DNA from: Acidobacteriaceae bacterium
GTDB taxonomy: Bacteria > Acidobacteriota > Terriglobia > Terriglobales > Acidobacteriaceae
Assembly: GCA_027365415.1 (NCBI GenBank)
Contig: DAHXNK010000017.1
Span: forward strand, 1-34,453
Direction of reading: 5' to 3'
Length of the DNA: 34,453 nt
Shown: in pieces, positions 2,803 through 31,102 of the stretch
Layout of the letters: every line of letters begins with the position of its first letter
How positions within the stretch are numbered: position 1 is the first letter of the stretch
Translations under genes and position numbers: made by a program
Notes under the pieces: model-generated
Databases searched by the model: none
Told to the model about the DNA's origin: nothing
What the model saw: the letters and a program-made list of their open reading frames with translations, nothing else

Positions 2803-4227
2803 ATGACAGACATGCGCAAGGAAAAAGATTCACTCGGGTTGGTTGAGGTTCCGGCAGGCGCGTACTACGGCGCGCAGACCGTTCGGGCTGTCGCCAACTA
2901 TCCTATCTCTGGAATGCGCGCGCACCCGCTGCTGATCCGCGCCTTTGGCATGGTCAAGGCCGCAGCCGCCGAAGCGAACAAAGGGCTGCAACTTATCGAA
3001 GCCGACCGCGCCGAGGCCATCCTGCAATCCGCACAGGAGGTCATCGCGGGCAAGTGGGACGCGGAGTTTGTTGTCGATGTCTTTCAGGCGGGAGCAGGTG
3101 TCAGCTTCCACATGAATGTGAATGAAGTCCTCGCCAACCGCGCCAATCAGATCCTCGGCGGTCAGCTTGGCGCGTACGACCGTGTCCATCCCAACGACCA
3201 CGTCAACTACGGTCAATCGACGAATGATGTCTTCCCGACGGGAATGCGTCTGGGCGCGTTGCTCGCGCTGGAAACGCTCTACCCGGTGCTGGACGCGCTG
3301 GCTGCGAGCTTCGAGAGCAAGGGCAAAGAGTTTCACGACATCCTGAAATCTGGCCGCACGCACTTGCAGGATGCCGTGCCGATGCGTCTGGGCCAAGAGT
3401 TTGCCGCCTACGCCGTCGCCATCCGCAAGGCACGCGCCAACATTGCCCATGCTGCGGACGTGCTGCGCGAGCTTGGCCTCGGCGGCTCAGCCGTTGGAAC
3501 GGGAATCAACACGCATCCCGATTATCGCGTGCAGGCCGTCAAAAATCTGGCGCGCATCTCCGGGCAAAAACTCACTCCCGCAGCGGACATGCGCTGGGCG
3601 ATGCAATCGAATGCCTGCATGGGCGAGGTGAGCGCCGCGCTGCGCAGCCTCGCGCTGGAGATTATCCGCATCTCGAATGACCTGCGGCTGCTGGCCTCCG
3701 GGCCAAACACCGGACTCGCAGAAATTTCTCTGCCGAGCTTGCAGCCCGGCTCGTCGATCATGCCGGGCAAGATCAACCCGGTGATGCCGGAGCTGGCGGC
3801 GATGGTTAGCTTTCAAGTCATCGGCAACGACACGGCAGTCGCCTATGCAGTCCAGGCCGGGCAGTTGGAGCTGAACGTGATGATGCCGACGATGTCGCAC
3901 AATGTGATGCAGTCGATTACGATTTTGACGAACATGCTGGGCCAGTTTGCTCACTGCTGCATTCGCGGCATCACGGCCAATGTCAAGCGCTGCGAACTCT
4001 ACGCGCAGAGCACGGTCTCGCTGGCGACAGCGCTGAATCCTTACATTGGCTATGCCAAGGCTGCGGAGATTGTGAAAGAGTCGGTGGCGACGGGGCGCTC
4101 GATCATCAAAATTGCACGAGAAAAAAAGCTGCTGAGCGAGCAGGAGATTGCCGAGATTCTCGATCCGGCGCGCATGACCGAACCGCAACCACCACTGGAT
4201 GCGGCCAGGCGCCGTTTCCGCGACTAA
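2803..4227 (+). CDS. aspA: Aspartate ammonia-lyase (aspartase)
   Basis: A cytoplasmic homotetrameric lyase that reversibly deaminates L-aspartate to fumarate and ammonia. Length is 474 aa, usual for the aspartase/fumarase superfamily. Seen: the N-terminal block KDSLGLVEVPAGAYYGAQT, HPNDHVNYGQSTND, and the superfamily signature GSSIMPGKINP at residues 316-326, where Ser318 corresponds to the catalytic base on the flexible SS loop. The N-terminal 'NYPISG' and 'HPNDHVN' favour aspartase over class II fumarase, which usually has 'PNDDVN'. The start at 2803 follows GGGGGTGTGAG; an in-frame ATG three codons later is possible. It converges on mqnC, and the two stop codons overlap by a few bases. Confidence 0.88.
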   Translation: MTDMRKEKDSLGLVEVPAGAYYGAQTVRAVANYPISGMRAHPLLIRAFGMVKAAAAEANKGLQLIEADRAEAILQSAQEVIAGKWDAEFVVDVFQAGAGVSFHMNVNEVLANRANQILGGQLGAYDRVHPNDHVNYGQSTNDVFPTGMRLGALLALETLYPVLDALAASFESKGKEFHDILKSGRTHLQDAVPMRLGQEFAAYAVAIRKARANIAHAADVLRELGLGGSAVGTGINTHPDYRVQAVKNLARISGQKLTPAADMRWAMQSNACMGEVSAALRSLALEIIRISNDLRLLASGPNTGLAEISLPSLQPGSSIMPGKINPVMPELAAMVSFQVIGNDTAVAYAVQAGQLELNVMMPTMSHNVMQSITILTNMLGQFAHCCIRGITANVKRCELYAQSTVSLATALNPYIGYAKAAEIVKESVATGRSIIKIAREKKLLSEQEIAEILDPARMTEPQPPLDAARRRFRD

Positions 4228-5270
4228 TGCAAAAACATTGTCCGATATAGCGTGTCGCGCTGGACTGGCCGAAAGCCGGCGCCGCGAATGATGTGGCGCA
4301 ACTCCTCCTCCGTGGTGCAGTTGGAGGTGCCCGCCGCCTTGACGACATTTTCTTCCAGCATTACGCTGCCAACATCGTTGCCGCCGAAGCGCAGGCCCAT
4401 TTGCAGCACCTTCAGCCCCTGTGTCACCCAACTGGCCTGCACGTTTTCAATGTTATCCAGGTATAGTCGCGCAGTGGCCAGCACTTTGAGATACTCCACC
4501 GATGTAGCCTCGTCCCATTTGCGCCCGCCGAGCGCCGTATTGCCGGGCTGAAAGCTCCACGGAATGAAGGCCGTAAATCCTCCGGTCTCTTCCTGCAGGC
4601 GGCGCACCTGCTCGAAGTGATTGATGCGCTGGTCGAAGCTCTCGCCCACGCCAAACATCATGGTCGCCGTGGTTCGCATTCCAAGCTGATGCGCGGTGCG
4701 ATGCACATGCAGCCAGTCTTCCGTGCCACATTTGAGGCGGGCAATTTTGCGGCGAACTTCATCATCCAGAATCTCAGCGCCGCCGCCGGGAATGGAGTCC
4801 AATCCAGCATCGCGCAAGCGGACAATGGTGTCGCGGACGGAGAGTTCACTGTACTCGGCAATGGCCAAAATTTCGGATGCAGAAAAACAGTGCAGCCAAA
4901 TCTGCGGAAAGCGCTGCTTGATGCCGCGCAGCAGTCGCTCGAACCAGTCGATCTTCAAATCTGGATGGAGTCCGCCCTGCATCAACACGCCGGTGCCGCC
5001 CATCTCGACGGTCTCGCGAATCTTTTCGTGGATCGTTTCAAAATCGAGGAGGTAGCCCTCAGCGGAGAGCTTGCCTTTTAGCGGGCGATAAAAGGCGCAG
5101 AAGGTGCAATACTCCGTGCAGAAGTTTGTGTAGTTGATGTTGCGGTCGATGATGTAGGTGACTACGCCCTCTGGATGCAGCCTGCGCCGCACCGCGTCGG
5201 CCTCCATGCCTAGGCCAATCAAGTCGTCGGAGGTAAAGGCGTCGAGCGCCTGTTGCCGCGTGATTCCCAT
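4224..5270 (-). CDS. mqnC: Cyclic dehypoxanthine futalosine synthase (radical SAM)
   Basis: A menaquinone-biosynthesis enzyme of the futalosine pathway. It uses S-adenosylmethionine and a [4Fe-4S] cluster to cyclise dehypoxanthine futalosine. The protein is 348 aa. The radical SAM motif CTEYCTFC holds Cys51, Cys55 and Cys58, preceded by the family-typical DRNINYTNFC. MQGGLHPDL and PGGGAEIL further match MqnC. Its presence means the host makes menaquinone by the futalosine route, as many Acidobacteriota do. The ATG at 5270 has no strong ribosome binding site. No other mqn genes lie nearby. The 3' end overlaps the convergent aspartase stop. Confidence 0.93.
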   Translation of the reverse strand: MGITRQQALDAFTSDDLIGLGMEADAVRRRLHPEGVVTYIIDRNINYTNFCTEYCTFCAFYRPLKGKLSAEGYLLDFETIHEKIRETVEMGGTGVLMQGGLHPDLKIDWFERLLRGIKQRFPQIWLHCFSASEILAIAEYSELSVRDTIVRLRDAGLDSIPGGGAEILDDEVRRKIARLKCGTEDWLHVHRTAHQLGMRTTATMMFGVGESFDQRINHFEQVRRLQEETGGFTAFIPWSFQPGNTALGGRKWDEATSVEYLKVLATARLYLDNIENVQASWVTQGLKVLQMGLRFGGNDVGSVMLEENVVKAAGTSNCTTEEELRHIIRGAGFRPVQRDTLYRTMFLH

Positions 5271-18735: not shown

Positions 18736-18758
18736 AGGTCGCCTGTTTCGGGCGACCT
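18736..18758 (-). terminator. Rho-independent terminator of the radical SAM gene
   Basis: On the minus strand, AGGTCGCC (18751-18758) pairs perfectly with GGCGACCT (18736-18743) around a 7-nt loop and is followed by TTTTG. It lies 24 nt after the radical SAM stop codon and just ahead of mutY, separating the two transcripts. Confidence 0.8.
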
Positions 18759-18781: not shown

Positions 18782-20887
18782 TTAGTCGATCATCGCCGGT
18801 TCTTCCACTTCTCTCGCGAATTCCGCTTTTGGGGCGGATTGAAGTAGCGCGTCGACAGCCACAAAATTTCCCTGTGGTTTCTCGCCCAATATATGCTCCC
18901 GATAGAGTCGTTCCATTTTCGCATTTTCTGCATCCTGTTTTTTTGTCTTGGCATCGCGCGCCAGCACTTTTTCCTGACGCGCGTTCTTGGCAATGCCCAG
19001 CTTATCCAGCGTGTCGTTTGCTGCGGCATGAACATGCTCTTCGTTCAGCGTCAGAGAGTGTTTCACCTCGCCCAGATTTACCTTGTGACCACCGGCAAAG
19101 ATTTCATGCCGACCATGCTCCTCGTACCACTTGGTCAGCGTGGCCGTCATGTGCATCTTCTCGATGATGTTGCGCCAACCTACCCCGGTGTTGTACGCGC
19201 AAAAGGAAATTTCACCCTCCTGCGTCGCGTATGGAATGATGCATTGCTCGGTGCGGCGGAAATCGTAGTTGAATAGATCCTGAAACCACATGCCCGCGAT
19301 GAACAGAAAATTCCAACGATCCGCGCGGCGTTTCTGGATGTCTTCCATCGTGCGATTCCCCGTGACAGACCCATAATTGCGGCCCGTCACCTCGAAGCTC
19401 TTGTCGAATTTTTCCAGCATGTCTTTAATCCGAAAATGTGTTGGCGCTTTGAATGGATCGTAGTTGCGCAACAATGCCAGCGCCACGCCAAGAACTGACA
19501 GAATCTTTCCGCGCGCCGCATCGTTGATCTTGGCCACATCCTTGGCCAGCCGATCCGCGTTGATGAAGGCTGTTACCGGAACAGCCTCCTTGGTTTCCTT
19601 GTCGATCATCAAGGCCATGCCGATGCCGCAATTGGGATGGCACCCGCAGGCGAGATGGCCCCAATCCTGGTTTGGGCCATGCACCATATCTGCCCAATCC
19701 GAGAAGGTGCTCATAAAGCTGATGGGGAACCAATCGCGTGTTGGTTCGCCTAGGCCTGTCTGATTTTTGACATCGTGCGCCATGTGGCTCAGCGTGTAGC
19801 GCTGCGCTGCGCGGCGTTCGTCCGTGACGGCCTCATCGCGCCCGGTAAAAGAAACGGGCTGAAAGCTCAGAAAGTTAATGGTCTTGGGGTTGTCAATCGC
19901 AAACTGAATAATGCGGCCTACCTGCTCATTGTTGATGCCATTGATGATGGTAGTTACGGGAGCGATTTCCACTCCAGCTTCGTGTAAATTGTGAATGGCC
20001 TGAAGTTTTACATCGAACAGGTTGCCCACCTTGCGATGTGAGTTGGCAGCATTACCGATACCATCAAACTGCAAGTAGGCATAACGCAACCCGGCTTTTG
20101 CAGCGGCACGACAAAATTCCTTGCTCTTGGCAAACTCGATGCCATTGGTCGCTGCCTGTACGGATTCATACCCCAGCTTGCGCGCGTAAGCCACCGCATC
20201 CAGAAAATAAGGCGACAGGGTTGGCTCCCCGCCAGAAAATTGCACAGACATCTGACGTTTGGGCTTGATGGAGATTGCGTTGTCCAGCAGGGTCTTGATC
20301 TCATCCCATGTCAGTTCATGCACAAACCCAACCTGATTGGCATCCATGAAACATGGGTCGCACATCATATTGCAGCGATTGGTCAGGTCAATGGTCAGCA
20401 CCGAGCCACGGCCATGCGTGATGGTTGAGCTGCCATGATTGTGCAGCGTTTCGTCATTGTGGGCGCGAATGTCGCGGCCAGGAAAAACCTCTTCCAGATG
20501 CTTAAAGAATGCTGGATCAATGGACATTACATCTTCAAAATGTCCATGCTTCGGGCAGTCCTTCACCATTAGGATCTTTCCATCGCGTTCGATGATTTGC
20601 GCTTTGATCTCACCCGCTTTTTCATGCAGCAGCATCTCATGCGGTAGCTTGCCGTCAACAATCTGCTGGCGTATCTCCGGGATGCACTTTGGGCACAGCG
20701 AATCGGTTGTGCGCGGCCAGCCGAGTGGCGGCTTTTCCTTCTGATACGACTTCAATAGTGGCTTGTCCGACCACTTGGGGGTAAAGGAGGCATTTGGGCG
20801 GATGCTATTCAGCTTATCGAAGATCACCCAACTGCCACGAGCAGCAAGAGTCACTATTTTTTCAGCGTACTTTATGGTTTTCGGCAT
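18782..20887 (-). CDS. Radical SAM enzyme, tetraether/membrane-spanning lipid synthase-like (Tes/Mss)
   Basis: A 701-aa cytoplasmic radical SAM protein. The radical SAM motif CNMMCDPC holds Cys172, Cys176 and Cys179, followed by the GGEP motif (FSGGEPTL). Features that point to the Tes family are an N-terminal SLCPKC/KDCPKHG pair (Cys65, Cys68, Cys111), a middle ACGCHPNCG cluster (Cys414, 416, 420), and a C-terminal WFQDLFNYDFRRTEQC ... SFCAYNTG block (Cys549, Cys563), matching the family's MHFQD-YNYD-R--RC and PFCAYN pattern. Archaeal Tes joins two isoprenoid chains tail to tail; bacterial homologues are linked to membrane-spanning diabolic acids, and acidobacteria are rich in iso-diabolic acid. 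The start is ATG 20887, nine bases after AGGAGG; an ATG two codons upstream has too-short spacing. The long frame upstream to 21088 is non-coding. The exact substrate is inferred. Confidence 0.78.
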   Translation of the reverse strand: MPKTIKYAEKIVTLAARGSWVIFDKLNSIRPNASFTPKWSDKPLLKSYQKEKPPLGWPRTTDSLCPKCIPEIRQQIVDGKLPHEMLLHEKAGEIKAQIIERDGKILMVKDCPKHGHFEDVMSIDPAFFKHLEEVFPGRDIRAHNDETLHNHGSSTITHGRGSVLTIDLTNRCNMMCDPCFMDANQVGFVHELTWDEIKTLLDNAISIKPKRQMSVQFSGGEPTLSPYFLDAVAYARKLGYESVQAATNGIEFAKSKEFCRAAAKAGLRYAYLQFDGIGNAANSHRKVGNLFDVKLQAIHNLHEAGVEIAPVTTIINGINNEQVGRIIQFAIDNPKTINFLSFQPVSFTGRDEAVTDERRAAQRYTLSHMAHDVKNQTGLGEPTRDWFPISFMSTFSDWADMVHGPNQDWGHLACGCHPNCGIGMALMIDKETKEAVPVTAFINADRLAKDVAKINDAARGKILSVLGVALALLRNYDPFKAPTHFRIKDMLEKFDKSFEVTGRNYGSVTGNRTMEDIQKRRADRWNFLFIAGMWFQDLFNYDFRRTEQCIIPYATQEGEISFCAYNTGVGWRNIIEKMHMTATLTKWYEEHGRHEIFAGGHKVNLGEVKHSLTLNEEHVHAAANDTLDKLGIAKNARQEKVLARDAKTKKQDAENAKMERLYREHILGEKPQGNFVAVDALLQSAPKAEFAREVEEPAMID

Positions 20888-20896
20888 TGTCATCGT

Positions 20897-20902
20897 CCTC
20901 CT
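20897..20902 (-). promoter_or_regulatory. Ribosome binding site deciding the radical SAM start
   Basis: A perfect AGGAGG on the minus strand lies 9 nt before ATG 20887 but only 3 nt before ATG 20893. This favours the shorter product, beginning MPKTIKYAEK. Confidence 0.8.
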
Positions 20903-21570
20903 GAAGTTTGGCAGTCTACTCCACGGTCGTACTGGCACGGGGTGACTGCAGTGAAACGGCGATTCGGCGCAAACCCACGATGAAGAAGCGTCCCGCCTGT
21001 CGCTTAGTAGACATACAAAGACCGGACACCCTTTCTTAAAAGGGGCAGCCAGACTCCTCCTTGAAAAACTCCCATTGTTAAGACGCAAAAAGTCGCATTA
21101 AGTTGCAAATTTTTGCACCAAGTTGCGGAGAACTCAATATGGATAAACAATAGTTTCCGTGTCGCTTGTCACGGGGAATTTCCATAGCTTTGTGCCGCAA
21201 GCAACACCTCTCCCGGAGTAAGCCGAGTTGAAGAGGGGATCTGCGAGATGGGTGTGCGCTCTTAAGAACGGAACAGTGTCATTTTACAGCACGCAGCCGA
21301 AATGCTCAAAGGAACCATTTCGAGAGAAGCGGCCCGTCCAACCACGCATTCTTTTGCCAAATTCTCACAAAAACCCAATAAGATTTCATGCGGGAATTCC
21401 TGCATTTTGTGCTATAAAGAACGTGAGCCATTGCCTCTGGTGTTCGGTGTCACGTCTCTGCGTGACGGGCAACACTTGCTCCTTGCCCCTGTGGAGTTTC
21501 AGTCGGGGTTGGATCGGGAAGTGCTGGGGTACGTTTCGATTCGGCACATTCAAATTTTTAGGATTTTTCC
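20903..21570. other. 668-bp divergent intergenic region
   Basis: The shared upstream region of the Tes-like gene (minus) and the beta-helix gene (plus). It contains the phased repeat array at 21080-21129. Open frames crossing it have no ribosome binding sites and unnatural composition. I recognise no RNA family. A poor near-palindrome (GCGGGAATTCCTGC, 21388-21402) and AT-rich patches around 21355-21415 could belong to the plus-strand promoter, but no convincing -35/-10 pair stands out. Confidence 0.5.
21080..21129. repeat. 10-bp-phased direct repeat array (AAGTYGCANN)5
   Basis: Five consecutive decamers are aligned at exactly 10-bp steps: AAGACGCAAA, AAGTCGCATT, AAGTTGCAAA, TTTTTGCACC and AAGTTGCGGA, starting at 21080, 21090, 21100, 21110 and 21120. 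GC at decamer positions 6-7 is invariant and AAGTNGC is kept in four of five units. One-helical-turn phasing places every unit on the same DNA face, the signature of a cooperative operator or a DNA-bending element. It lies about 195 bp upstream of the Tes-like start. Confidence 0.65.
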
Positions 21571-24500
21571 ATGACGATGTTAACCTTTGTATCGCGCGTT
21601 CTCGCGCTCGTCTCCGTCGCTCGTAGCCGGAGCTTCCCCACGCAAGCCAAAAGAAGGCTTGCACTGGGCACCCTGCTGCTGGCGGTCTTTATGCTGGCGG
21701 CAGCGAGCGCCCACGCCCAGACCACCTACACCGTGACCAACACGAGCAGCAGCGGAAGCGGCTCGCTCGCCGCGGCGGTCGCGTCGGTGAATGCGGATAC
21801 GGGCACGCCCGGCGACACCATTGACTTCGCCAATGGCGTGACGGGCACCATCACGCTGACCAGTACGCTGCCCCTGGATCAAAATGTGACCATCACCGGG
21901 CCGGGAGCGAATCTGCTGACCATCTCCGGCAACAACGCTGTGACTGTGTTCACCATCAGCTCACCGAGCGTGACGGCCAGCATCTCCGGGCTGACCATTG
22001 CCAATGGCAATGGCAACACCCTCGGCGGCGGCGGCATTTATGACAATGGCGGCACGTTGACAGTGAGCAACAGCGCACTTTCCAACAATACGGCTGGCGG
22101 CAGCGGCCTCGGCGGCGGCATTTTCAACAGCGGCGGCATGTTGACAGTGAGCAACAGCACACTCTCCGGCAACACGGCTGGCGGCGGCGGCGGCATTTTC
22201 AACGGCGGCACGCTGAAGGTGAGCAACAGCACCTTCTCCAACAACACGGCTGGCGACGGCGGCGGCATTTATGACAATGGCGGCACGTTGACAGTGAGCA
22301 ACAGCACCTTCAGCGGCAATACCGGTACCAGCGACGGCGGCGGCATGTATGACAATGGCGGCACGTTGACCCTTACCAACAGTATTGTGGCGGGCAACAC
22401 GGAGAACGCTTCAGGACAAGCAGGCAACGACTGCTATGGCTGCGGCACGCAAAGCGGCGCCAACATCATCAGCACCACGGCTACTCCGATTACGGCGGCG
22501 CAACTGCTGCTTGGCCCACTGCAATATAACGGTGGTTCGACGCAGACGATGATGCCGCTAACGGCCAGTCCGGCCCTGAATGCAGGACTCAGCAGCACGC
22601 TGGCCACCGACCAGCGCGGATTTCCCCGTCCCACGGGTAGCGGCGTGGTTAGCGATCTGGGCGCGGTGGAAGTTGGGGCTTTGACCGTAACCACAACGGC
22701 GGACAGCACAGACATCAGCGCCGTGTGCGATGGCAGTGATGTCTGCTCTTTGCGCGATGCGCTGACGCTGGCCAACAGCCAGGGTTCCGGGGACATCGGC
22801 TTTGCCTTCAACGTGACGGGCACTATCACGCTGACCAGTGCGCTGCCGAACATTACTGGCAGCATCAATATCACCGGGCCGGGTGCGAACCTGCTGACCA
22901 TTTCTGGGAACAATAGCACAACCGTTGGAACCGTCTTTACGATCAACTCCGGCGTGACGGCCAACATCAGCGGGCTGACCATCGCCAATGGAAACAGCAT
23001 CAACGGTGGCGGCATTTTCAACAACGGTGGCACGTTGACGGTGAGCAACAGCACACTCTCCGGCAACACCGCGACCTCCGGCGGCGGCGGTGGCATTCTC
23101 GACTGCGGCGGCACGTTGACGGTGAGCAACAGCACACTCTCCGGCAACACCGCGACCTTCGGCGGCGGTATTGACAACCAAGGCACGGTGACAGTGAGCA
23201 ACAGCACACTCTCCAACAATTCGGCTAGCGGCGGCGGCGGCATTTTGAGCGGTGGCACGTTGACGGTGAGCAACAGCACCTTCTCCAACAACACGGCTGG
23301 CTTCGGCGGCGGCATGTATGACAATGGCGGCACGTTGACCCTTACCAACAGTATTGTGGCGGGCAACACGGAGAACGTTTCAGGACAAGCAGGCAACGAC
23401 TGCTATGGCTGCGGCACGCAAAGCGGCGCCAACATCATCAGCACCACGGCTACTCCGATTACGGCAGCGCAATTGATGCTTGGCCCGCTGGCCTACAACG
23501 GAGCGAACCAAGCGGTGCAAACCCTGCTACCTCTACCTGGAAGTCCGGCGATTGAGGCGGGCAATCCCGCGCTGCTGCCTGTCGGCATGACCACGGACGA
23601 GCGCGGCCTGCACCGTACCATCAATGGCAAGCTCGATCTGGGCGCGGTGCAGACGAATTACACTGCCGTGCAGTTCATGCAGCAACCAGCCAATACAGCG
23701 GTCAACACGAGGATGACACCCCCCGTAACGCTGAGCGTAACGGAGAGTGGCGCAGCGGCGCTCAACATTCCTGTTCCGCTCACGCTGACGGGCAACGGCA
23801 CACTGGGCGGCACGACAACGGAGACCACGCTGGCTTCGGTGGGCATCGCCGTGGCTACGGCCAGCTACGGCAATCTGAGCGTGAACACGGCGGGCACGGG
23901 CGACACGCTGGACGTAACCCTGCCCATCGTTCCATCCGGAGGAACCAGAACGCCACTGACGTTGACGGCCACCAGCAGCGCGTTTGACATCTTCCAAACA
24001 GCGCCGACGATCACCTGGTCGCCCACGCCACCCACCAGCGTGGTCTACGGTGCCGCGCCGATCTCGCTGAACGCAACGTTGAACGCGACCGGGCCGACGA
24101 TCAGCTATGTGGTCGATGCCGGACCAGCAACGATCAGCGGCAACAAGCTGACCTTCACCGGAGCAGGCACGGTGATCGTGGAGGCGGTCAGTACGGCCAC
24201 CAATAACTATGCCTCTGGCAACGCTGTTGCCTACATTACGGTTACCCCTGCTACCACGACCACCACGCTGGCTGTATCTCCGACGACGCCGATCACCGCA
24301 GGCAGCAGCGTGACGCTGACGGCGACCGTCAAATCCGGCAGTGCTGCGGTGCCGAGCGGACTGGTGATCTTCTCCAGCGGAACCACTTCGATTGGCGTAG
24401 CTTCATTGAGCGCCAGCGGCGTTGCGATCCTGAACACAACGTTGCTGCCGGTGGGCAGTGACAGCATTACGGCCAGCTTTGTCGCCTCGACCAACGACGT

Positions 24501-25173
24501 GGCCAGCACATCTTCATCTGTGACTGTCACGGTGAGCGCGCCGACAACGCCGCCTACGCCCAGCTACACGATGGCGGCGACCCCGGCCTCGCTGAGCATC
24601 GCGCAGGGGCAGACGGGAACGACCACGTTGACCTTTACGCCGTCGGGCGGCTACAGCGGCAAGTTGACATTAAGCTGCATCGGCCTGCCCCTCAATACGA
24701 GTTGCGCGTTCACGCAGGGCGGCACGGCGAACAACATCGTGACGATGAGCGGTAACAATCAGCCGATCACCGTTGCCCTAGCCGTGCAGACCAACGTGGC
24801 AACGGCGCAGATGCAGGCGCTGCCCAGCTCATTCGGGCCAGGATATTCGCCCGCGAATCCGTCTAGCCCGCTGAGTCCGATCCTGCCAGCGCTGGCCTTC
24901 TGGTGGCCGGGGAGCATGGCCGGATTGTCCGCCTTTGGACGCAAGCGTGGCAGATCGAAGACGCAGCAGCGGATGTTGCAACTCTGCCTGCTGGTGTTGA
25001 TGACGGGAGCGCTGGCAGCAGGGATCTCCGGCTGCGGCGGCTCGGCGGCGAGTACCCCAGCGGCGGCAAGCGTCACGCCTGCAGGCAGTTCAACGACGAC
25101 CGTACTTGCGACTCCGACTCCTAGCAGCGGCCAGTCCATTCAAGGCCTGAGCCTCACCCTCACCATCACCTAG
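21571..25173 (+). CDS. Large secreted beta-helix / Ig-like repeat protein
   Basis: A 1200-aa exported protein. After a basic N-region, a signal peptide (RRLALGTLLLAVFMLAAASAHAQ) ends near residue 50. Two parallel beta-helix (pectate-lyase-like) regions follow, roughly 55-365 and 370-690, built from short repeats of the GGTLTVSNSTLSGNTAGGGGGIFN type. The second opens with CSLRDALTLANSQ, typical of choice-of-anchor/CSLREA proteins. Then come Ig-like domains (about 700-1080) with TTTTLAVSPTTPITAGSSVTLTATV. The C-terminus is unusual: a WWPGSMAGL patch, basic GRKRGRSK, a hydrophobic segment (LCLLVLMTGALAAGISG) and CGGSA plus a Thr/Ser-rich tail, a pattern I associate with acidobacterial surface proteins. 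Function unknown; adhesion or polysaccharide binding is plausible. The start has only a weak AGGA upstream. Confidence 0.85.
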   Translation: MTMLTFVSRVLALVSVARSRSFPTQAKRRLALGTLLLAVFMLAAASAHAQTTYTVTNTSSSGSGSLAAAVASVNADTGTPGDTIDFANGVTGTITLTSTLPLDQNVTITGPGANLLTISGNNAVTVFTISSPSVTASISGLTIANGNGNTLGGGGIYDNGGTLTVSNSALSNNTAGGSGLGGGIFNSGGMLTVSNSTLSGNTAGGGGGIFNGGTLKVSNSTFSNNTAGDGGGIYDNGGTLTVSNSTFSGNTGTSDGGGMYDNGGTLTLTNSIVAGNTENASGQAGNDCYGCGTQSGANIISTTATPITAAQLLLGPLQYNGGSTQTMMPLTASPALNAGLSSTLATDQRGFPRPTGSGVVSDLGAVEVGALTVTTTADSTDISAVCDGSDVCSLRDALTLANSQGSGDIGFAFNVTGTITLTSALPNITGSINITGPGANLLTISGNNSTTVGTVFTINSGVTANISGLTIANGNSINGGGIFNNGGTLTVSNSTLSGNTATSGGGGGILDCGGTLTVSNSTLSGNTATFGGGIDNQGTVTVSNSTLSNNSASGGGGILSGGTLTVSNSTFSNNTAGFGGGMYDNGGTLTLTNSIVAGNTENVSGQAGNDCYGCGTQSGANIISTTATPITAAQLMLGPLAYNGANQAVQTLLPLPGSPAIEAGNPALLPVGMTTDERGLHRTINGKLDLGAVQTNYTAVQFMQQPANTAVNTRMTPPVTLSVTESGAAALNIPVPLTLTGNGTLGGTTTETTLASVGIAVATASYGNLSVNTAGTGDTLDVTLPIVPSGGTRTPLTLTATSSAFDIFQTAPTITWSPTPPTSVVYGAAPISLNATLNATGPTISYVVDAGPATISGNKLTFTGAGTVIVEAVSTATNNYASGNAVAYITVTPATTTTTLAVSPTTPITAGSSVTLTATVKSGSAAVPSGLVIFSSGTTSIGVASLSASGVAILNTTLLPVGSDSITASFVASTNDVASTSSSVTVTVSAPTTPPTPSYTMAATPASLSIAQGQTGTTTLTFTPSGGYSGKLTLSCIGLPLNTSCAFTQGGTANNIVTMSGNNQPITVALAVQTNVATAQMQALPSSFGPGYSPANPSSPLSPILPALAFWWPGSMAGLSAFGRKRGRSKTQQRMLQLCLLVLMTGALAAGISGCGGSAASTPAAASVTPAGSSTTTVLATPTPSSGQSIQGLSLTLTIT
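22335..22496 (+). repeat. Intragenic 162-bp repeat, copy 1
   Basis: Nearly identical to 23304-23465, offset by 969 bp (323 codons). By eye only one base differs (GCTTCAGG versus GTTTCAGG). It encodes the end of the first beta-helix region, starting with GGMYDNGGTLTLTNSIVAGN. Confidence 0.85.
23304..23465 (+). repeat. Intragenic 162-bp repeat, copy 2
   Basis: Second copy of the 22335-22496 repeat, in the same frame and at the equivalent end of the second beta-helix region. The near-identity at third codon positions points to recent duplication or gene conversion within the gene. Confidence 0.85.
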
Positions 25174-29611: not shown

Positions 29612-31102
29612 ATGAATATACCCGACGCCATTTCCGTCAAAGACGCAGCGATAAAAATTGGCGTTTCCGAGCAACGCGCCAGATCGCTTCTCCGATCTGG
29701 CGCGTTGCTCGGGCGACAGATCGGCAAGCTCTGGATCACCACAGATGAGGCCGTCGCCGCCTTTCTTTCGTCGGGCGGAATCAAGGCACAAGAAGACAAG
29801 CCACGCGGCCCCGGAACCATGCCTGACATTAAAGCGCTATCTTTCTTTTCAGGCGCGATGGGACTCGATCAGGGGCTGGAGAAAGCAGGCATCCACGTTC
29901 TACTGGCCTGCGAGATGGACAAGACCTGCCGCCGCACGATTGTGGAGAATCGACCCGACATTGCATTGCTTGGAGATGTCTGGAAATATGACGCTGACGA
30001 AATTCGTGCTGCATCCGGCCTTGGCCTCTCCGCAGAAATTGACGTGATGGTCGGTGGCCCGCCGTGTCAGGCGTTTTCGACTGCGGGTGCTCGTCGAGGC
30101 TTCAAGGACGAACGTGGCAACGCGCTGCTTCGGTATGTTGATTTGATCCTTGATCTACGTCCGAAGTATGCAGTCATCGAGAATGTGCGTGGTCTTTTAT
30201 CGGCTCCACTGAGCCATCGCCCACATGTTGAGCGCAATGGCGGTTGGACTCCCGGTAGAGAGGAGCGACCTGGTGGAGCGCTGATGCACATACTCAAAAA
30301 GCTGCGCGCTGCCGGGTATGGCGTTACCTTCAACCTTTACAATGCAGCCAACTTTGGCGTGCCTCAATCGCGGGAGCGGGTCATTCTTCTCTGCGCTCGT
30401 GATGGAACAAAGTTGCCCCACCTTGTTCCCACGCATTCGCAAGACCCATCTTTCGGCCTGCCCAAGTGGAGAACCCTGCGAGAAGCTCTGGATGGACTTG
30501 ACCCAAAAGCAGGCGACCACGATGCGTTCCCTGAAGGTCGCTTGCGGTTCTACCGGATGCTTGGCCCTGGGCAGTATTGGAAACATTTACCAGCGGAGCT
30601 TCACCGGGAGGCGCTTCGCGGTTCCCTAGATGCGGGTGGTGGAAAGACTGGATTTTTGCGGCGACTCGATTGGGAGAAACCCTCCTGTACGTTGGTTACA
30701 TCGCCATGCATGCCTGCCACGGATATCTGCCATCCGACGGAAGATCGTCCACTTTCCATTCAGGAATATAAACGCATCCAGCAATTCTCAGACGATTGGA
30801 TTGTGTGCGGCTCCATGTCGGATCAATACCGCCAGATCGGCAACGCAGTTCCCGTGGGATTGGGCGAGGCCGTGGGAAAAGCCATCCTCGCTCACATGAA
30901 CGGCAAGGACGAGAGGCCACCCGCCAACTTTCCATTCAGCCGTTACAAAAACACCGATGAAATTTCCTGGGAAGCGCAAACGCGGGCCGTCATGGGCTTG
31001 GACAATTCAACGGGAAAGAGTAAGCAATCACGAAAATCGAGTAATTGGGATACATGGAATGACGAGCAAATGGCGCTCTTTCAATCGCAGATGCCGATTT
31101 GA
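29612..31102 (+). CDS. Orphan C5 DNA cytosine methyltransferase with N-terminal helix-turn-helix
   Basis: A 496-aa DNA (cytosine-5) methyltransferase. The first ~60 residues form a MerR/excisionase-like DNA-binding domain (ISVKDAAIKIGVSEQRARSLLRSGALLGRQIGKLWITTDEAVAAFL). Methyltransferase motifs follow: motif I LSFFSGAMGLDQGLEKAG, motif IV GGPPCQAFS with nucleophile Cys152, motif VI ENVRG with Glu190, motif VIII QSRERVI, and motif X RQIGNAVPVGLGEAVGKAI. The region between motifs VIII and IX is the target-recognition part. AGGTG just upstream supports ATG 29612. No restriction-endonuclease or control gene lies within the window, so it appears to be an orphan. The helix-turn-helix coding region holds a perfect 46-bp hairpin. 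Confidence 0.92.
   Translation: MNIPDAISVKDAAIKIGVSEQRARSLLRSGALLGRQIGKLWITTDEAVAAFLSSGGIKAQEDKPRGPGTMPDIKALSFFSGAMGLDQGLEKAGIHVLLACEMDKTCRRTIVENRPDIALLGDVWKYDADEIRAASGLGLSAEIDVMVGGPPCQAFSTAGARRGFKDERGNALLRYVDLILDLRPKYAVIENVRGLLSAPLSHRPHVERNGGWTPGREERPGGALMHILKKLRAAGYGVTFNLYNAANFGVPQSRERVILLCARDGTKLPHLVPTHSQDPSFGLPKWRTLREALDGLDPKAGDHDAFPEGRLRFYRMLGPGQYWKHLPAELHREALRGSLDAGGGKTGFLRRLDWEKPSCTLVTSPCMPATDICHPTEDRPLSIQEYKRIQQFSDDWIVCGSMSDQYRQIGNAVPVGLGEAVGKAILAHMNGKDERPPANFPFSRYKNTDEISWEAQTRAVMGLDNSTGKSKQSRKSSNWDTWNDEQMALFQSQMPI
29667..29712 (+). repeat. Perfect 20-bp inverted repeat inside the methyltransferase coding sequence
   Basis: CCGAGCAACGCGCCAGATCG (29667-29686) and its exact reverse complement (29693-29712) flank a 6-nt loop, CTTCTC. 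It encodes SEQRARSLLRSGALLGR within the helix-turn-helix domain, beginning about 55 nt after the start codon. The mRNA would form a very stable hairpin; as DNA it is an unusually long palindrome. Confidence 0.95.

Follow-up and report, generated by a model that had tools for sequence, protein, structure and literature searches.

A divergent Tes-family radical SAM protein of Acidobacteriota as a candidate iso-diabolic acid synthase

In many soil acidobacteria, iso-diabolic acid makes up 20–40% of the fatty acids; it also forms the backbone of the branched glycerol dialkyl glycerol tetraethers (brGDGTs) used for reconstructing past temperature and pH. Which enzyme joins its two chains, and whether the product is carried as ester or ether, is the question raised by a gene in a 34,453-nucleotide stretch of DNA from an Acidobacteriaceae bacterium (contig DAHXNK010000017.1, the whole of which stretch is called the window below). 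The coding sequence occupies 18785..20887 of the minus strand, with its stop codon extending to 18782, and specifies a 701-aa radical S-adenosylmethionine (SAM) protein that we call type A, recognized by translation and by profile and structure-database searches; all features of the protein given below lie on this same strand. By analogy with Tes of Methanocaldococcus jannaschii, type A probably couples two iso-C15:0 acyl chains, carried by intact phospholipids, through their terminal methyl carbons, giving iso-diabolic acid. What was observed is homology, fold, conservation of ligands and distribution, while substrate, product and mechanism are carried over from the archaeal enzyme.

A distant member of the Tes family

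Profile searches with the type-A protein return Pfam Radical_SAM (E 7e-19), the HMPTM zinc ribbon (E 5e-13) and the NCBIfam Tes model (E 3e-96, 322.9 bits). These Pfam and NCBIfam matches, together with orthologues at 74–96% identity in most genomes of the host family, argue that the gene is not a chance pattern. An earlier reading of this DNA from its letters alone (the sequence-only reading) had proposed a Tes/Mss-like radical SAM enzyme as a candidate membrane-spanning lipid synthase. Membership in the Tes equivalog family is not supported, as the score falls short of the curated cut-off of 450 bits for NF045702, and the full-length type-A proteins seen score near 312–332 bits. Nor does the protein reach the cut-off of the TrsS model (208 versus 490 bits). 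Type A is thus a distant, non-canonical member of the Tes family. The search against Tes (MJ0619) that the same reading had proposed does identify Tes as the closest characterized relative by both sequence and fold, in a comparison outside which the Mss sequences lay.

The best sequence relative of solved structure is M. jannaschii Tes (7tol, E 7e-62), at 31% identity over 528 alignment columns. A structure model built from 47 sequences (mean predicted local distance difference test, pLDDT, 62.9; predicted template modelling score, pTM, 0.69) has 7tom/7tol as its top Foldseek match (E 9e-24), and VIA-align 2 superposes 442 residues of this model, with its pLDDT of 62.9, on 7tom at a Z of 19.9 and a root-mean-square deviation of 4.1. 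The next fold match, MoaA, has a Z of 15.0 with just 242 residues aligned. A radical SAM enzyme with a role outside lipids, such as a maturase or a methylase of pterins, is brought to mind by these secondary matches, which also include viperin and LipA, and by the former annotation of Tes itself as a pterin methylase (PMC9433317), from which PF23545 takes its name. However, the MoaA, viperin and LipA matches are limited to the TIM-barrel core and little more, whereas Tes alone spans residues 55–588 of the predicted model, which is to say the whole length of the Tes fold. Moreover, the Tes-specific C-terminal cluster and its methionine are conserved in type A, and neither pterin genes nor one for a precursor peptide were noticed beside it, so that we judge a non-lipid role very improbable.

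Within the host family, where type A is close to universal, a Tes-family gene is found in 162 of 171 near-complete genomes (E 1e-60 or better), and the canonical form, type B, which exceeds the NCBIfam cut-off (586 bits on the Tes model in genome G032, for example), in 18 of 180 genomes. No full-length Tes-family gene was found in the near-complete family members G018, G310 and G314. Divergent type-A forms (50–71% identity) are spread across the phylum, many members of which have none. The tree unites every one of the 50 type-A rows in a single group (support 100) that excludes type B, the TrsS-like proteins and M. jannaschii Tes; the deep joins are unsure because some of the branches are long. 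A second and more divergent type-A subgroup, A2 (50–59% identity; loci L104-L109 and L100-L103), is found together with the main form in several genomes that belong to other families.

Cofactor sites and a proposed mechanism

The Tes ligands described in PMC9433317 were mapped onto aligned type-A (82), type-B (14) and TrsS-like (five) proteins. The rubredoxin-like CxxC...CxxH site is retained in type A as C65, C68, C111 and H114 (20546..20695; Tes C9, C12, C33 and H36), within the motifs SLCPKC and CPKHG, with the three cysteines present in all 82 proteins and the histidine in 81. The radical SAM core domain, delimited by profile searches, covers residues 168–330 (19898..20386), and its CX3CX2C cluster motif, C172/C176/C179 (20351..20374), is invariant and aligns with that of Tes. 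At the C-terminal auxiliary cluster, C420 (in CGCHPNC, 19628..19648) is the equivalent of Tes C338, and it is joined by M533, the counterpart of the labile Met439 of Tes, and by C549 and C563 (19199..19291), the two cysteines lying in the WFQD-FNYD-C-FCAYN block. All four residues are invariant across the 82 proteins, the correspondence of the cysteines to Tes ligands being read from the alignment. Two further cysteines, C414 and C416 of ACGCHPNCG, are invariant additions of type A. The 701-aa radical SAM gene and each of the cysteine groups listed in the sequence-only reading are therefore present as described.

The three Fe-S clusters which that reading looked for are another matter. At the place of the N-terminal auxiliary [4Fe-4S] cluster of Tes, whose ligands are C73, C77, C80 and a histidine, type A has an invariant H151 and S154 (20426..20437), and none of the three positions holds a cysteine in any of the 82 proteins, whereas the cysteines are kept in all 14 type-B and all five TrsS-like proteins. 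With these ligands missing, three clusters are unlikely, and two Fe-S clusters plus a mononuclear rubredoxin-like site would be expected.

If type A follows the chemistry of Tes, the radical SAM cluster would split SAM to yield a 5'-deoxyadenosyl radical, which would in turn abstract a hydrogen at the omega position of one chain. The omega carbon would be parked on one of the sulfurs of the C-terminal [4Fe-4S] cluster, with its ligands C420, C549 and C563 and a swinging M533, and a second radical would then couple to the carbon so held. Because the N-terminal auxiliary cluster is absent, electrons would presumably enter through the rubredoxin-like site alone.

On either side of the shared fold lie two extensions. 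Residues 1–57 (20717..20887; alignment and model) are without counterpart in M. jannaschii Tes, and residues 590–701 (18785..19120; structure search and model) run past the Tes fold. Residues 3–27 are confidently predicted as a weakly amphipathic helix; its role as an amphipathic membrane anchor was considered and dropped, the hydrophobic moment being unremarkable.

Iso-diabolic acid as ester or ether

The link to the lipid is drawn most directly in Edaphobacter modestus DSM 18101, a profile search of whose genome yields a single Tes-family gene, of type A. This type strain contains 30.4% iso-diabolic acid, with glycerol ethers undetected (PMC11354219), and the same acid accounts for 20–40% in 17 cultures of subdivisions 1 and 3 (SD1/SD3; PMC13274423). 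Tes makes its omega-omega bond on phytanyl ends (PMC8941075; PMC13274423), and omega-omega coupling of iso-C15:0, an isopropyl-ended chain, gives iso-diabolic acid, such that the chemistry at the chain ends is the same. Tes also binds an ester-linked bacterial phospholipid (PMC9433317). The earlier proposal of iso-diabolic acid as the product fits both this gene-to-lipid match and the distribution of type A.

Might another enzyme make the acid in these organisms? The host has 14 radical SAM proteins, and 11 of them can be placed in families whose role is known (MoaA, MiaB, RimO, HpnJ, HpnH, BioB, HemW, MqnC, LipA, RlmN and, under its cut-off, QueE). The remainder are type A, a TIGR04053 protein and a MoaA-like protein, L025. 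The TIGR04053 protein has no close counterpart among the examined loci of two isolates, those of E. modestus being covered in part. L025 remains a rival because E. modestus and Granulicella rosea have it too, as do most genomes tried; its gene in genome G068 is 260 bp upstream of that for type A. Were L025 or an Mss-type enzyme the iso-diabolic acid synthase, type A could perform another C-C or C-H modification of lipids, for example one that is methylation-like or a cross-chain coupling. The control genome of Thermotoga maritima, a diabolic-acid producer, lends this some weight, having no Tes-family match at E 1e-20, from which it follows that bacteria also have another route to diabolic acids. 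Yet G167 and G250 have type A but no L025, and G018, where full-length type A was not found, does have L025. Its profile matches are confined to the radical SAM part, with nothing Tes-like beyond and no resemblance to a lipid enzyme. On balance we think this division of labor unlikely. L025 is itself a small conserved protein, seen at G000:C76:1766-2803 and G068:C2:181759-182676.

The sequence-only reading had also allowed for a branched tetraether. Here the evidence from the host points the other way: no DUF2229 protein, the ester-to-ether reductase of PlsA/Ger type, was found in the host (90% complete), its 99%-complete sister, E. modestus, G. rosea or G032, in a search that left aside other ether routes such as the elb genes. 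On this basis the host is predicted to make ester-linked iso-diabolic acid rather than brGDGT. A DUF2229 protein is present in G163 and G296, and Koribacter versatilis is reported to make tetraesters (PMC13274423). The case for brGDGT, or its diether-coupled form, as the type-A product in the host comes from Edaphobacter aggregans, which has a single Tes homologue of 32% identity and makes some brGDGT at low oxygen (PMC8941075). Since identity to M. jannaschii Tes is 28–33% for type A and 38–44% for type B, this homologue is probably of type A. Against it stand the missing reductase and the lipids of E. modestus, with their iso-diabolic acid and undetected ethers, and we regard a tetraether made by type A in the host as quite unlikely.

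How, then, does type A relate to the canonical enzyme? Of the 18 family genomes with type B, 16 also carry type A, and in 11 of these 16, from seven genera (G021, G032, G122, G163, G296, G317, G332, G334, G353, G360 and G374; loci L060-L063), type A lies upstream of type B in the same order and on the same strand, 0.6–11 kb away; the remaining five genomes have the two genes on separate contigs. G344 and G327 have type B only. Its position thus links type A with the tetraether enzyme. If type A pairs in this linked manner with canonical Tes in tetraether-capable relatives, the A/B pair may separate tetraester from tetraether producers, and type A, working with a rubredoxin-like site and two Fe-S clusters, may be a dedicated ester-lipid iso-diabolic acid synthase of Acidobacteriota. 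This broader scheme we offer tentatively, as one that could well prove wrong.

Several points weigh against type A as an iso-diabolic acid synthase. In addition to the sub-threshold Tes score, the low identity to M. jannaschii Tes, the third Fe-S cluster that is absent relative to Tes, the wide sharing of L025 and the T. maritima control, no lipid-gene operon was seen around the window gene in a neighborhood comparison of 124 loci.

The locus, prior proposals and comparison with known systems

The minus-strand frame at 18782-20887 is uninterrupted, encoding 701 aa plus the stop, and the open frame reaches upstream to a TTG at 21088. The start is nevertheless assigned to the ATG at 20887, since a Shine-Dalgarno sequence, AGGAGG (20897..20902), was read 9 nt before it and this start is common to relatives, M1 being invariant among 47 aligned proteins. 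A gap of 683 bp separates it from the divergent upstream gene. Between the type-A stop and mutY sits a terminator-like hairpin, AGGTCGCC-N7-GGCGACCT, followed by TTTTG (18736..18758, minus strand; folding at -22.5 kcal/mol, z -2.56). The earlier description of a stand-alone gene with its own promoter region and terminator is borne out as to its isolation and the hairpin; promoter-like sites near the gene are no more frequent than in shuffled sequence. The host genome, 2.09 Mb at 90% completeness, has no Tes-family gene besides type A, which is retained even though that genome is merely 2.1 Mb.

Conservation of the neighborhood is weak, the mutY cluster being close by in 12 of 124 type-A loci. 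Two neighbor clusters recur upstream in about 23–25 loci, one a lytic transglycosylase encoded on the opposite strand and the other a protein of 280–450 aa without Pfam match, encoded on the same strand. Elsewhere in the window, the divergent gene at 21571-25173 (plus strand) encodes a 1200-aa protein with beta-helix and bacterial immunoglobulin-like domains, probably a surface protein; 4224-5270 (minus strand) encodes MqnC, the cyclic dehypoxanthinyl futalosine synthase of the futalosine route to menaquinone; and a DNA cytosine-5 methyltransferase gene at 29612-31102 (plus strand) adjoins guaA.

The idea that an acidobacterial Tes homologue functions in membrane-spanning lipids is not new, since a brGDGT role was proposed by Zeng et al. 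(2022; PMC8941075), who listed 456 bacterial Tes homologues, acidobacterial ones included, at 32% identity in E. aggregans and 40–42% in Solibacter and Koribacter; PMC10087280 put forward the same role for Solibacter usitatus. The function of bacterial Tes has been described as untested (PMC11868695). In the same year, the bacterial membrane-spanning lipid synthase Mss was reported (Sahonero-Canavesi et al., 2022, as cited in PMC13274423), and the assertion that the enzyme "has been sought" in Acidobacteriota is accordingly dated. In the literature compared, outside which the 2022 Mss paper stands, we found no description of the separate subfamily, the missing cluster, the A-B linkage or the same-strain match of gene and lipid. 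Relative to that literature, the novelty lies in the variant set of cofactors, in the linkage of the A and B genes and in the matching of gene with lipid. A gene marker splitting ester from ether producers would aid proxy work, and the question is directly testable, given that each genome has a single conserved gene, that strains can be cultured, that the difference in cofactors is defined and that the lipid offers a readout.

Among known systems, Mss has a modeled catalytic architecture that is said to match Tes (PMC13274423). TrsS, a radical SAM (seleno)protein, has a Tes-like N-terminal half in common with type A (NCBIfam NF045646), but the TrsS-like proteins aligned here keep the N-terminal cluster and lack the three cysteines of the C-terminal one, the reverse of type A. 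The type-B acidobacterial Tes, as in G032, belongs to the same superfamily, occurs in some relatives and usually lies just downstream of type A; it differs in its 38–44% identity to Tes, in keeping all Tes cluster ligands and in being absent from the host. Archaeal Tes itself (GDGT-MAS; MJ0619, PDB 7TOL and 7TOM) shares with type A the radical SAM core, the rubredoxin-like CxxC...CxxH, the C-terminal cluster with its labile Met439 and the overall fold. Type A, at 31% identity, departs from it in lacking the N-terminal auxiliary cluster, in its two additional invariant cysteines, in extensions of about 57 aa at the N-terminus and 110 aa at the C-terminus and, as predicted, in its substrate, which would be an ester-linked iso-acyl lipid rather than archaeol.
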